Shown here in pieces: positions 134-5,170 of a DNA stretch of 64,000 nt; within the stretch, counting starts at the first letter, position 1, and the number at the start of each line of letters is the position of its first letter. Location: the NCBI GenBank assembly GCA_023662725.1, contig JAMPIL010000001.1:651796-715795 (forward strand), given 5' to 3'. The notes under the pieces were generated by a model. That model worked only from the letters and a program-made list of their open reading frames with translations, did not search any database and had not been told where the DNA came from. Source of the DNA: Ruminococcus flavefaciens. GTDB lineage: Bacteria > Bacillota > Clostridia > Oscillospirales > Ruminococcaceae. The position numbers and the translations under genes are program-made.

Positions 134-781
134 CTATCTTAATAATCCACGTAAATATCTAAGTAGTTGTGTAGCATCTTTAAAAGTTATTTCTCCATCA
201 CCATCCATATCAGCTTGTAATAATCCTGTTACAGTTGGTTCATAAGTTCCAGCGATAGCTTTGTTTAAAAGTTCAAAATCTTCCATATTAACTACACCAT
301 CAACATTAACATCTCCCATATCTAAAACACCAATATAAATATTACTTTTCGCAAGTTCATTTCCTCTATCGTTTTTTAAAGAAGTAATATTAATGTCTTT
401 AACATCCGGATAAATCTCCTGTGATGAAACAAAATCCACAAATCCCATATATCCAGACAAGTTGGTAGGGCTTGAATTAATATAGTTAACATATACTATA
501 TTTTGTGTATCAGTTATTTCAATATCATTCACCTTAAATTCCCCACCAATATCTCCGACATTATTTACTGTACATATTGTTATATTTGGATTATACGAAA
601 CATTAGCGTTAAATTTAGCTATATATGTGTTTGCATGTGCATAGAAACAATATCTTTTAGCATAAAATGCATCTTCTGATACGTCTGTACTTTCGGCTGA
701 TACGGAAATCATATTCCCTACAGAAGCAACAGACATTATTGCTGTTAATAAAACCGATGTTAATCTTTTTAAACCCTTCAT
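134..781 (-). CDS. Small secreted dockerin protein
   Basis: This is a 215-residue secreted protein with a Sec signal peptide (about residues 1-29, ending SVSA). A central region of about 110 residues rich in predicted beta-strand follows. The C-terminus (about 154-214) is a type-I dockerin with two Asp-rich calcium loops (GDVNVDGVVNMEDF and ADMDGDGEITFKDA), each followed by a helix. The dockerin should dock it to a cohesin on a scaffoldin or the cell surface. The middle module has no recognised catalytic motif; its pattern (YNPNITICTV, then GGEFKV) is faintly cohesin-like, which is only a suggestion. An SD (AAAGGAG) precedes the ATG by 7 bases. Codon use is AT-rich, unlike the later cellulosomal genes. 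If the sigK element extends leftward, this gene is cargo inside it. Confidence 0.8.
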   Translation of the reverse strand: MKGLKRLTSVLLTAIMSVASVGNMISVSAESTDVSEDAFYAKRYCFYAHANTYIAKFNANVSYNPNITICTVNNVGDIGGEFKVNDIEITDTQNIVYVNYINSSPTNLSGYMGFVDFVSSQEIYPDVKDINITSLKNDRGNELAKSNIYIGVLDMGDVNVDGVVNMEDFELLNKAIAGTYEPTVTGLLQADMDGDGEITFKDATQLLRYLRGLLR

Positions 782-1146: not shown

Positions 1147-1175
1147 TTGATTTTTTATAGAAATTGTTGTATAAT
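1147..1175 (+). promoter_or_regulatory. Sigma-A-type promoter of the serine recombinase
   Basis: TTGATT (1147-1152) and TATAAT (1170-1175) are spaced 17 bp apart, followed by the short inverted repeat at 1185-1203. An SD (AAGGAGG) precedes the ATG at 1222. A housekeeping promoter would allow expression outside the mother cell unless the inverted repeat is an operator; I saw no sigma-E consensus. Confidence 0.6.
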
Positions 1176-1221: not shown

Positions 1222-2943
1222 ATGAATGTCAATCGAAAATTTGCAATATACTCCCGAAAATCTAAATTCACAGGCAAGGGAGAAAGTATCGGAAATCAAA
1301 TTGAATTATGTAAGCAAAACATTCATTTGTCATATCCTGACATATCAGATGAAGATATTTTAATATTTGAAGATGAAGGATTTTCTGGCGGTAACACTAA
1401 ACGCCCACAATTTCAGGAAATGATAAAACTATGTCGCCAAAAGCAAATCAAATGTATAGTGTGTTATCGATTAGATCGTATAAGTAGAAATGTTAGTGAT
1501 TACTCTGCTCTAATTGAAGAACTGAATCATTTAGATGTTTCGTTTATTTCCATCAACGAAAAATTTGATACATCAACTTCAATGGGCAGAGCTATGATGT
1601 ATATCGCATCCGTATTTGCACAACTTGAACGTGAAACCATCGCCGAGCGCATTCGTGACAATATGCTTGAGCTTGCCAAAGACGGAAGATGGCTTGGCGG
1701 TAATCCACCCACAGGCTATAAAAGTATTGAAACAGTGGGAAGTGTTACAGTAGATGGCAGAAAACGAAAAGCTCATATGTTGGAAATCGTACAAGAAGAA
1801 GCTGAAATGGTAAAATTAATTTATCAAAAATTCTTAGAGGTTCGTTCATTAACCAAAACAGAAACCTATTTGATTCAAAATGACTATCTTTCTAAAAATA
1901 AGAAATCATTATCACGATTTTCAATTAAGGCTATTCTTTCTAATCCTGTGTATCTTATTGCAGACGAACAAGCATGGAATTACTTTGAAATGAAAGAAGT
2001 GGATGTTTTTTCGGATAAATCTGAGTTTGATGGTACGCACGCTATTATGGCATACAATAAGACGAGTCAAAAAATAGGAAGAACAAACGAAACAAGAGAT
2101 ATCAAAGACTGGATTGTTTCGGTGGGCAAACACAAAGGTATTATTAATAGTCACGATTGGATTGAGGCTCAAAAATTGTTAGAGCAGAACAAGTCAAAAT
2201 CCTATCGTAAGCCTAAGAGTAATGTTGCATTACTTTCAGGATTACTTTTCTGTGGTAAATGTGGAAGTTTTATGCGACCTAAATTGTCTCAGCGAAGGAA
2301 TAACGATGGTGATTTAATTTATGATTACCTTTGCGAATTAAAAGAAAAAAGTAAAAGTCATAAATGTGATATGAAACGTCCGAACGGAAACGAACTTGAC
2401 AGAATAGTTTGCGAGGAAATAAAAAAGATTTCTGAAGATGAGTCAGTTTTCATGGAAACACTAAAAAAAGAACAAAAAACGTTTATCACTAATAATATTT
2501 CTTATCAAGAAAAAATAAAATCATTAATGAAATCAAAATCTGATAACGAATCAAAAATAAAAAGCCTTGTACAATCACTTACACAATCTGTTGGCACTTC
2601 TGCTCATGAATATATTTTACAGGAAATAAACAGTCTTGACGAGAAAATAAAATCACTACAAGAACAAATTCAGGAATATGAAGATTTAAGCAAGATAGAA
2701 ACTAATTCTGATAATGAATTTGAAAGTCTCGTAGAAATGTTATTGTCATTTGCTAAATCTTTTGATAGTATGTCAATAGATCAGAAACGATCTGCAATTC
2801 GTATGTTTATTCACAAAATTATTTGGGATGGTGAAAACATTCATATTTACTTCTTCGGAGCATCAGATAAAGATGAAATTGACTTTTCAGATCTCGATGA
2901 TTCAAGAGCCACAGCGATAGGATTGAAAATGAAATTCTCATGA
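1222..2943 (+). CDS. Large serine recombinase (SpoIVCA-like)
   Basis: This 573-residue large serine recombinase cuts and rejoins DNA at att sites through a serine-DNA intermediate. The N-terminal resolvase domain (about 7-155) shows YSRKS with the likely nucleophile Ser14, plus the RLDRISRN and FAQLERETIAERI motifs. A recombinase domain follows (about 165-290). A zinc-ribbon around 345-395 carries paired cysteines (CGKCG and later Cys residues), and the C-terminal 150 residues are rich in coiled coil. Its last codons run into sigK: its TGA overlaps the ATG of the next frame, and the final residues (GLKMKFS) come from DNA that also encodes IENEILM of sigma-K in another frame. Position and family make it the candidate excisionase of the sigK intervening element, by analogy with SpoIVCA. 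I have not shown activity. Confidence 0.9.
   Translation: MNVNRKFAIYSRKSKFTGKGESIGNQIELCKQNIHLSYPDISDEDILIFEDEGFSGGNTKRPQFQEMIKLCRQKQIKCIVCYRLDRISRNVSDYSALIEELNHLDVSFISINEKFDTSTSMGRAMMYIASVFAQLERETIAERIRDNMLELAKDGRWLGGNPPTGYKSIETVGSVTVDGRKRKAHMLEIVQEEAEMVKLIYQKFLEVRSLTKTETYLIQNDYLSKNKKSLSRFSIKAILSNPVYLIADEQAWNYFEMKEVDVFSDKSEFDGTHAIMAYNKTSQKIGRTNETRDIKDWIVSVGKHKGIINSHDWIEAQKLLEQNKSKSYRKPKSNVALLSGLLFCGKCGSFMRPKLSQRRNNDGDLIYDYLCELKEKSKSHKCDMKRPNGNELDRIVCEEIKKISEDESVFMETLKKEQKTFITNNISYQEKIKSLMKSKSDNESKIKSLVQSLTQSVGTSAHEYILQEINSLDEKIKSLQEQIQEYEDLSKIETNSDNEFESLVEMLLSFAKSFDSMSIDQKRSAIRMFIHKIIWDGENIHIYFFGASDKDEIDFSDLDDSRATAIGLKMKFS
2922..2942 (+). other. Probable attachment-site core inside sigK (AATGA)
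   Basis: In the sigma-K frame these bases read IENEILM, and in the recombinase frame they read the last residues plus the stop. AATGA at 2928-2932 equals the short direct repeat reported for the B. subtilis skin junctions. The exact crossover cannot be fixed without the other end of the element. Confidence 0.6.
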
Positions 2944-3293
2944 ATTTTCGTGCTGCCAAAAAAACTGCCGGAGATGTTTACATAAATGAACCTGTCGAAA
3001 CTGATAAAGACGGGAACGCTCTAACGCTTATGGATCTCATAGACGATGGAGTTGATATACATGAACAGGTAGATATGCTGATTCGTTCAAGACAGCTTTA
3101 CCGATTCCTCAGTCAGTGTCTGAACGAGCGTGAACTGGACATAATCGTATACCGATACGGTCTATACGGAAAACAACCTCATACTCAAAGTGAAACAGCA
3201 AAAAGGCTCGGAATATCACGTTCTTATATTTCCAGAATTGAGAAAAAAGCTATTGAAAAATTAAGAAAAATGTACGATTCAACACCATTTTAA
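2940..3293 (+). CDS. sigK: C-terminal half of sporulation sigma factor sigma-K (gene split by element)
   Basis: The frame encodes region 3/4 of a sporulation sigma factor. KKTAGDV and EPVETDKDGN match the sigma-K linker (KKTKKDV, DPIGTDKEGN in B. subtilis), and the end has the region-4 helix-turn-helix (TQSETAKRLGISRSYISRIEKKAIEKL). Region 2, needed for core binding and -10 recognition, is missing, and no SD precedes the ATG at 2940. The frame continues upstream without a stop through IENEILM (from 2922), which overlaps the recombinase gene. I infer that this is the 3' exon-like part of sigK, rejoined to a 5' part left of the window by excision of the element in the mother cell. A standalone 117-residue protein is the less likely alternative. 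Confidence 0.8.
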   Translation: MNFRAAKKTAGDVYINEPVETDKDGNALTLMDLIDDGVDIHEQVDMLIRSRQLYRFLSQCLNERELDIIVYRYGLYGKQPHTQSETAKRLGISRSYISRIEKKAIEKLRKMYDSTPF

Positions 3294-3311: not shown

Positions 3312-3340
3312 TTGACAAAAGTCCGTATAAGTACTATAAT
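3312..3340 (+). promoter_or_regulatory. Strong sigma-A promoter of the marR-MATE operon
   Basis: TTGACA (3312-3317) and TATAAT (3335-3340) are consensus hexamers with a 17-bp spacer. An SD (AGGAGGT, 3362-3368) lies 7 bases before the marR ATG. Confidence 0.85.
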
Positions 3341-3375: not shown

Positions 3376-3810
3376 ATGGAACATTGGAATGGATATATTA
3401 AAGAAATCAACTCTGTAATCGAGCGTACGGACTATCTTTATGAAAAATGGGCAAAGCAACACGGAATAAATAGCTATGTTATGCAAGTTATGTACATAAT
3501 TTACGCCACAGGAATCAACAAACAGAAAGATATCGTTGGAAAATATGGTATGCCAAAGCAAACGGTAAATACGGTCATTACTGATCTTCAGAAAAAAGGC
3601 TATATTCGCTTGACACCTGATGAAAATGATAAACGCAGTAAAATCATCATACTTACCGATGAAGGTCGAAGGTATGCAGAAAATATTGTCAATCCATTGT
3701 TAAACTGTGAAAAAGAAGTTCTTGCAGAAATGGGTGAAGAACGTGTTGAAATGCTAATTAGTACAATGAATCAATATGCTGAACTGCTTGAACAGAAAAT
3801 GAGAAAATAA
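3376..3810 (+). CDS. MarR-family transcriptional regulator
   Basis: This is a 144-residue MarR-type winged-helix dimer protein. The recognition-helix region is KYGMPKQTVNTVITDLQKKGYI (about 56-77), followed by the wing TPDENDKRSKIIILTDEGR (about 79-97), with helical dimerisation segments at both ends. MarR proteins repress adjacent efflux genes until a small ligand binds. Here the gene precedes a MATE pump by 28 bp on the same strand behind one promoter that carries an inverted repeat, so it probably represses its own operon. The ligand cannot be read from the sequence. Confidence 0.9.
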   Translation: MEHWNGYIKEINSVIERTDYLYEKWAKQHGINSYVMQVMYIIYATGINKQKDIVGKYGMPKQTVNTVITDLQKKGYIRLTPDENDKRSKIIILTDEGRRYAENIVNPLLNCEKEVLAEMGEERVEMLISTMNQYAELLEQKMRK

Positions 3811-3838: not shown

Positions 3839-5170
3839 ATGAATATACAGCTTTCAGAACATTTTACATATAAAAAATTATTACAATTTACATTTCCAGC
3901 CATAATTATGATGATTTTTACGTCCATATATGGTGTTGTGGACGGATTTTTCGTTTCAAATTATGTGGGAAAAACGTCGTTTACAGCAGTAAATTTCATT
4001 ATGCCGTTTCTTATGATACTCGGCGCTGTCGGATTTATGTTCGGAACAGGCGGAAGTGCGCTTATTGCCAAAACTCTTGGTGAAGGCAAGCACGAAAAGG
4101 CTAAGCGACTTTTTTCACTGTTTATCTACACAACAGCAGTCTGCGGAGTTATTATAGCGATTCTTGGAATAATTCTTATCAAACCAATCGCATCGTTTCT
4201 TGGAGCAGAAGGAAAAATGCTTGATAACTGCGTCACCTATGGCAGGATAATTCTTGCTGCTCTTCCATTTTTCATGCTTCAATATGAATTCCAAAGTTTT
4301 TTTGCAACGGCTGAAAAACCACAGATCGGTCTTGGTGTAACAATAGCTGCCGGATGCACAAATATGATATTGGACGCATTATTCGTTGCAGTATTCAAAT
4401 GGGAGCTTGTCGGCGCTGCTGCCGCTACGGCAATAAGTCAGCTCGTTGGAGGCCTTATCCCTCTGATTTACTTTTCCAGAAAAAATTCCAATATACTCCG
4501 TCTTGTCAAAACCCAATTCGACGGAAAATCACTACTCCGAGCCTGCACTAACGGTTCATCCGAACTGATGACCAATATCTCAATGTCCATAGTAAATATG
4601 CTTTACAATGTTCAATTAATGAAATATGCGGGAGAAGACGGCGTTGCGGCATATGGAGTTCTGATGTACGTCAACATGATTTTTCTTGCCGCATTCATCG
4701 GATACTCCGTTGGAATAGCTCCTATAAGCGGATATCATTACGGCGCAGGCAATCATGCGGAATTAAAAAATCTTCTGAAAAAAAGCTTTATCATAATCGG
4801 GATTTTTTCCGTTTGTATGATTGCTCTTTCAGAACTGCTTGCTTATCCGCTTGCAAAAATTTTTGTTGGTTATGATAAAGAACTTCTGAATTTAACGCTC
4901 GGCGGATTCCGAATATTTTCTTTTGTATTTCTTTTTGCAGGAATTTCAATTTTCGGTTCTTCTTTCTTTACATCGCTTAATAACGGACTTGTTTCCGCAT
5001 TGATATCATTCCTGCGTACATTGGTATTTCAGATCTCTGCAGTTCTGATAATTCCGATTTTTCTTGGCATCAACGGCATATGGCTTTCTATCGTCGCTGC
5101 TGAAATCATGTCCGTTATAATAACCCTGATATTTATTTTCAAACTTAAAGAGAAATATCATTATATATAA
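3839..5170 (+). CDS. MATE-family multidrug/cation antiporter
   Basis: This 443-residue polytopic membrane protein has about twelve hydrophobic segments in two MatE halves (about 10-215 and 230-435). The first half shows the family-typical GTGGSALIAKTLGEG stretch after TM2, and the second a GYSVGIAPISGYHYGAG counterpart. MATE pumps expel cationic drugs or dyes in exchange for Na+ or H+. It is co-transcribed with the MarR regulator 28 bp upstream and has its own SD (AAGGAG). Length is normal and no damage is visible. The substrate is not predictable. Confidence 0.9.
   Translation: MNIQLSEHFTYKKLLQFTFPAIIMMIFTSIYGVVDGFFVSNYVGKTSFTAVNFIMPFLMILGAVGFMFGTGGSALIAKTLGEGKHEKAKRLFSLFIYTTAVCGVIIAILGIILIKPIASFLGAEGKMLDNCVTYGRIILAALPFFMLQYEFQSFFATAEKPQIGLGVTIAAGCTNMILDALFVAVFKWELVGAAAATAISQLVGGLIPLIYFSRKNSNILRLVKTQFDGKSLLRACTNGSSELMTNISMSIVNMLYNVQLMKYAGEDGVAAYGVLMYVNMIFLAAFIGYSVGIAPISGYHYGAGNHAELKNLLKKSFIIIGIFSVCMIALSELLAYPLAKIFVGYDKELLNLTLGGFRIFSFVFLFAGISIFGSSFFTSLNNGLVSALISFLRTLVFQISAVLIIPIFLGINGIWLSIVAAEIMSVIITLIFIFKLKEKYHYI

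Follow-up and report, generated by a model that had tools for sequence, protein, structure and literature searches.

At the left end of the window, the 64,000-nucleotide stretch analyzed here (C11:651796-715795 of the Ruminococcus flavefaciens genome, hereafter G000), a large serine recombinase gene is directly followed by a fragment of a sporulation sigma factor gene. The locus raises the question of what has split the sigma factor gene, and of what the insertion does to the recombinase gene beside it. A textbook example of programmed DNA rearrangement is provided by skin elements, which are commonly regarded as domesticated phage remnants. Elements intervening in sigK are already known. The new part is an apparent split in the reading frame of the recombinase, for which no report in a sigK element was found in the open-access literature.

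The split sigK gene and its empty site

The recombinase ORF (1222-2943, plus strand) overlaps at its 3′ end with the sigK 3′ half (2922-3293, plus strand). The overlap contains the putative attR core ATTGAAAATG (2922-2931, plus strand) and AATGA at 2928-2932, a repeat also used by the crossover of the B. subtilis skin element. Traced backwards, the sigma frame stays open through IENEILM; its stop codon is at 3291-3293. Within it, a 117-aa ORF (2940-3293) was assigned Sigma70_r4 by Pfam, without region 2. Its top NCBIfam models were two SigK models (e.g. spore_sigmaK, profile positions 115-226 of 227), with scores that miss the cut-offs, since only half of the protein is there. These readings bear out the preliminary description, which had placed a serine recombinase directly 5′ of a sigK C-terminal half lacking region 2, and had read the sigma frame as open through IENEILM, with the AATGA inside it.

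A SigK-family search of the same genome gave nine matches, among them an N-terminal half at C33:107995-108375 (plus strand, profile positions 3-129). The C-terminal half in the window covered profile positions 109-226. An intact sigK elsewhere had been named as evidence against a split gene, and none was present among the nine matches listed. The sole full-length SigK-family match in G000 (C11:777104-777763, minus strand) was considered as a hidden second sigK and rejected: it follows a SpoIIGA-like ORF, which we take to be SpoIIGA, and was therefore taken as SigE.

On contig C33, the sigK 5′ half (107998-108333, plus strand) is followed by ~3.2 kb before the contig ends on the right. This half reads ...ASRC-IEN and leaves sigK at the same core, with the codons I-E-N as the break point; the short repeat is present at both element ends. 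A plus-strand 5′ half ending in ...ARC(IENEILM) next to AATGA had been predicted to the left of the window; a plus-strand 5′ half beside AATG was found, but on contig C33. Joining both G000 halves by script at the AA of the core (2928-2929 in the window, the predicted crossover) gave a 227-aa SigK, and the in silico join restored SigK exactly in all six genus members joined. In the close relative G050, an uninterrupted sigK lies between the genes of the C33 side (an epimerase and others) and those of the window side (MarR, MATE and others). The neighboring proteins are 84-100% identical to those of G000, and the empty site is therefore seen directly. Both ends are found on one contig in G040, G123, G043 and G008, with the sigK halves 5.5-9.1 kb apart. 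With two sigK halves sharing a core and an empty site in G050, these sequence comparisons show that a C. difficile skin-type element intervening in sigK has its right end in the window, in agreement with the earlier proposal of a skin-type right junction.

The window starts directly after a 100-N scaffold gap (C11:651696-651795), so its contiguity with the sequence to the left is unproven. The ends of the G000 element are on two scaffolds, with the middle unassembled, and no exact overlap with the window start was found for C33 or any other tested contig end. An element of 650 kb, or a chromosomal inversion, was rejected, since the 651 kb to the left are joined by the gap alone. The element measures at least ~6.2 kb if a single element includes both the C33 end and the window start. 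The right-hand part of the element extends from the scaffold gap to the predicted crossover (1-2929), as delimited by the empty site in G050. As cargo, it carries a 215-aa dockerin type I protein (134-781, minus strand; Pfam Dockerin_1, E 8.5e-12), and positions 126-1001 are 83% identical to a stretch in the dpaB element of G050 (see below). The chromosomal right flank, outside the element, encodes a MarR-family regulator (3376-3810, plus strand) and a MATE-family transporter (3839-5170, plus strand), both assigned by Pfam and found in the same positions beside the intact sigK of G050. A perfect sigma-70 consensus promoter (TTGACA, 17 nt, TATAAT; 3312-3340) lies 5′ of this pair.

The recombinase frame across the attachment site

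The recombinase has the Pfam domains Resolvase, Recombinase and Zn_ribbon_recom, and its catalytic domain is that of a serine resolvase. The integrated state encodes a short form of 573 aa, whose structure model had a mean pLDDT of 74.2 and a pTM of 0.44. In a fold search, it aligned along the entire SPbeta integrase (E 3e-20, TM 0.42-0.44), and its final ~28 residues before the core were disordered in the model. Judged by the modelled fold, the truncated form is still a whole enzyme. The recombinase stop lies exactly at the core in 19 of 31 elements, using the TGA of sigK's own AATGA, and at most 5 codons from the core in 23 of 31; in G000 the distance is 4 codons.

A candidate sigma-A-type promoter (TTGATT, 17 nt, TATAAT; 1147-1175, plus strand) precedes the recombinase. 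By itself it is weak, with 16 promoter-like sites in the stretch and 13.6 expected. A similar motif (TTGNNN, 16-17 nt, (T,C)ATAAT) was read by eye upstream of the recombinase in 12 of 13 aligned regions, the exception being G102; G249 was left out of the alignment. No shared sigma-E site was found 5′ of the recombinase in a rough scan. Sigma-E control in the B. subtilis style was rejected on these two grounds. Given the sigma-A-like motif, the timing of excision probably comes from another factor.

At the other end of the element, directly 3′ of the sigK 5′ half, a conserved frame of ~200 codons is found in all six genus members joined. This HTH segment contains two HTH domains (Pfam HTH_3, two stretches) and resembles SinR/Cro-like domains (best E 9e-4 to 1e-2); its structure model was weak (mean pLDDT 70.5). 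When the element ends were joined in silico, the recombinase continued in frame and uninterrupted into the HTH segment in 31 of 33 elements from several families, which are kin and therefore not 33 independent tests. The joined frames were 764-924 codons long from stop to stop, counting codons upstream of the recombinase start. For this count, 32 elements were given to a script that joins at AA, and 30 were parsed: the HTH segment was in the recombinase frame in 29 and the junction was stop-free in 28. To these 28 were added L174 and L149, joined separately, and the inverted L139, whose crossover dinucleotide is TT in place of AA. L181, an HTH locus without sigK, is outside the count. The two exceptions are G238, with a TGA stop two codons upstream of the core, and L154, in which the frame ends 93 codons past the core and the HTH match is out of frame. 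In several HTH-less elements (e.g. L135, L142, L153, L162) the core placement is rough, and their numbers of codons after the core are approximate.

By the in silico join, the attachment site is inside the recombinase reading frame in these 31 of 33 elements, and integration appears to interrupt not only sigK but also the recombinase frame. Relative to sigK, the HTH frame is shifted by 1 in G000, G123, G043 and G008, and by 2 in the others. The shift of the recombinase frame equals that of the HTH frame in 29 of 30 rows. Measured in this way, the register between recombinase and HTH segment is kept, although their placing relative to sigK changed. A recombinase-HTH fusion in every sporulation-gene element was considered and rejected: in the dpaB element of G050, the recombinase ends ahead of the core, leaving the two frames unjoined.

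Distribution and variation of the elements

A recombinase query against the genus (125 genomes) gave eight matches at E up to 1e-60. Six were flush with a split sigK (G000, G008, G040, G043, G102 and G123), and the other two were a 43% relative in a split dpaB (G050) and a match on a 5.2-kb contig (G055). In the class search, 24 of 391 genomes had a recombinase match at E up to 1e-150. Among the best 80 related loci, taken from genome contigs of other genomes, 74 had a sigK 3′ half just downstream of the recombinase, and the pairing is therefore more than chance. The remaining six comprised three loci with an inverted 5′ half (L130, L139, L178), one with a partial 3′ half (L122), one at a contig end (L134) and one with the 3′ half 1.4 kb away (L165). 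Reverse-orientation elements, with the recombinase by the 5′ half or the HTH segment by the 3′ half, were seen at L139, L341, L130 and L178. Overall, sigK elements whose recombinases belong to one clade are present across many Clostridia of the gut, and Holdemania has them too.

The HTH segment was detected in 22 of 396 genomes in the family search, and it lay directly behind the sigK 5′ half in 20 of 20 fetched family loci (G000 and G040 not counted). The order search gave 10 further HTH loci: eight behind a sigK 5′ half, one beside a 3′ half and inverted (L341), and one with no sigK within its flank (L343). Among the 50 genomes of recombinase loci, 24 had an HTH match at E up to 1e-5, which was strong in 17. 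Many relatives, including Lacrimispora elements, are without the HTH segment, which makes it dispensable for rebuilding sigK.

The elements also vary in size. Just ~1.64-1.65 kb separates the two parts of sigK in L329-L332, from four genomes of a single genus, and the one ORF in this space encodes a 449-455-aa recombinase that lacks the coiled-coil region. The missing residues (414-510 in window numbering) correspond to the helical hairpin 407-492 of the model. In other integrases, removal of the coiled coil relaxes directionality. An element of ~2.1 kb with a 547-aa recombinase was observed at L322.

Some sigK elements look recently transferred, also between families, when their DNA is compared. 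The recombinase DNA of Holdemania (Erysipelotrichaceae, L149) is 95% and 90% identical to that of Lachnospiraceae L150 and L164 (Tyzzerella), respectively, and a query of the sigK 3′ half with its flank gave no match in the same comparison. The G040 element encodes a replication protein of the REP_ORF2-G2P family (L062 10858-11757; Pfam E 9e-14), with ~50% identical relatives in the G123, G043 and G008 elements. No rolling-circle Rep protein was found in the known parts of the G000 element. A rolling-circle Rep protein, or a protein resembling one, in four relatives' elements fits with mobile circles.

Related recombinases were also met on records filed as plasmids. Over 1723 nt of DNA, a recombinase gene on the R. 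albus 7 megaplasmid pRUMAL01 (L374 12001-13716) and that of R. albus AR67 (L136) are 97.5% identical. The similarity to this sigK-element recombinase breaks off precisely at the attR core, and neither half of sigK lies in the vicinity. NZ_CP149756.1 (L375), a 24-kb circular record filed as a plasmid, carries a 40% identical recombinase beside an ethanolamine-utilisation cluster, and it may be an excised chromosomal segment.

Other sporulation-gene insertions were encountered in relatives. In G050, where sigK is intact, dpaB (spoVFB) is split instead, next to the 43% related recombinase, with the halves ~12.7 kb apart (G050:C47:62819-76073; L077, L100); in G000, dpaB is full length. In G083 (L078 8200-8730, L079 8165-9929), sigK is split ~30 codons further downstream, with the halves on two contigs and an unrelated recombinase (22% identity). 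The crossover site of this second-site element was sought and not found.

Proposed mechanism and comparison with known systems

We consider it highly probable that the element splits both sigK and its own recombinase, with the short form excising the element and the circle encoding a long recombinase-HTH form. In the integrated state, the chromosome would encode the short, complete recombinase. By analogy with C. difficile, this enzyme would excise the element in the mother cell upon a developmental signal. Two genes would be restored in this one step, since excision would leave a rejoined sigK in the chromosome and a longer recombinase gene on the released circle. The circle would then encode the long recombinase-HTH protein, which could serve the mobile phase, either by integration into a new sigK or by regulation on the circle.

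It is possible, and here we are tentative, that gene splitting itself sets the direction of recombination: the long form, made from the circle only, would integrate, and the short form, made in the integrated state only, would excise. Each state might then encode just the enzyme it needs, with the TGA of the target sigK often supplying the switch, an idea that we offer with reserve. Loss of the HTH segment, accompanied in one genus by loss of the coiled coil, might in the same way leave excision-only domesticated elements, down to ~1.6 kb, which is likewise a speculative step.

Alternatively, the HTH segment could be a separate recombination directionality factor (RDF): its transcription in the mother cell would be driven by the sigK promoter, and it would turn the short recombinase towards excision. 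The joining of the two frames on the circle would then be secondary, and a factor fused to the recombinase would block re-integration. We regard this as rather unlikely, even though several observations point to it. The HTH segment is directly behind the sigK 5′ half, a position from which its transcription would have the required timing and cell type. Behind the 5′ half of dpaB in the G050 element there is likewise an HTH ORF, unfused, and this position behind a sporulation promoter favours a role as directionality factor. The recombinase promoter looks vegetative, and timing must come from elsewhere, as with CD1234 of C. difficile (passages of PMC5025042). In addition, artificial integrase-RDF fusions favour attL x attR recombination, according to the available parts of PMC5737554.

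In the integrated state, however, the HTH frame has neither a conserved start codon nor a conserved SD. Its first ATG, GTG or TTG lies between −21 and +61 codons from the core, and a start with a 5-of-6 SD match was present only in G000 and L172 among 30 rows, with G000 offering a weak candidate start codon. The missing start favours the HTH segment as part of a long integrase made from the circle. Codons 15-60 of the segment are conserved, although in some elements, such as G129 (+48) and G040 (+61), the first possible start is beyond most of them. In six pairs with an overall dS <1, dN was 0.02-0.22 and dS 0.23-0.89 over these codons, and dN was lower than dS in 15 of 15 pairs with defined dS (20 pairs compared). 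On these estimates, codons 15-60, which precede any possible start in several elements, are under purifying selection. The first 15 codons, with dN > dS in several pairs, do not show this and look like attachment-site DNA, and selection at the protein level is therefore not established right at the junction. The HTH frame also differs relative to sigK among elements, which argues against one conserved frameshift, and elements without the HTH segment exist.

The join could also be a relic of an ancestral recombinase-HTH gene with an internal attachment site, its frame kept by descent and its long form unused. This explanation accords with the absence of the HTH segment from many relatives and its degeneration in L154. 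No record with a fused recombinase-HTH gene was found, and HTH queries matched no relative in viral contigs, plasmids or phages. Nevertheless, we judge it improbable, in view of the purifying selection on codons 15-60, the register kept across elements with two different shifts relative to sigK, and the recent transfer between families.

A dead insertion, in a strain with an inactivated sigK that does not finish sporulation, is very unlikely: across many lineages, the recombinase and both parts of sigK have open, conserved frames, and in the six genus members an exact SigK results from the join. That the G000 halves are an assembly artefact is hardly credible, despite their location on different scaffolds and the 100-N gap at the window start, since both junctions are within assembled sequence and have a common core, only their sigK sides match the uninterrupted gene of G050, and the same layout is contiguous in G040, G123, G043 and G008.

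If the split frame that we propose is used, the directionality of large serine recombinases could lie in the position of the attachment site and need no additional factor, and bacteria too would have a kind of gene splitting that has been described as exclusive to archaea. Elements with the full fusion, without the HTH segment or without the coiled coil make up a natural series in which the choice of direction by such recombinases could be tested, a choice that also matters for genome-editing tools.

Among known systems, the C. difficile skin element (sigK, CD1231, CD1234) likewise has a split sigK, and the available passages of PMC5025042 place its recombinase immediately upstream of the sigK 3′ half, behind a sigma-A-type promoter. 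The element described here shares the first two features and has a similar promoter motif. The preliminary description had set the recombinase beside the 3′ half against the B. subtilis arrangement; the location was right, but it is not odd for clostridia, as the C. difficile skin shows. In contrast to the C. difficile element as these passages describe it, the recombinase frame here crosses the attachment site into an HTH module, and no CD1234-like factor was identified. The same passages describe the B. subtilis skin as occupying another site in the opposite orientation to the C. difficile element, with a spoIVCA that needs sigma-E and SpoIIID (PMC5025042). It shares with the present element the interruption of sigK, a large serine recombinase and AATGA at the junction.

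In archaeal suicidal (SSV-type) integrases, the attachment site is within the integrase gene and integration splits the gene. In the consulted part of a 2021 review, self-splitting integrases are described as exclusively archaeal tyrosine enzymes, left inactive in two pieces (PMC8371274). Common to both systems is an attachment site inside the integrase reading frame. Here, however, the enzyme is a bacterial serine recombinase, and, as the structure model suggests, a whole catalytic form would be kept and an added C-terminal segment lost.

Other intervening elements are vfbin in spoVFB, gin in gerE, yin in yabG and SPbeta in spsM (PMC10747680, PMC5595907). They too are mobile DNA in a sporulation gene that a serine recombinase rejoins, but in other target genes, and the passages available from these two papers do not mention a split recombinase gene. 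Finally, artificial integrase-RDF fusions, as presented in the accessible parts of PMC5737554, also combine a large serine integrase and a second domain in one chain. Those fusions were designed, whereas here excision itself would make the join.
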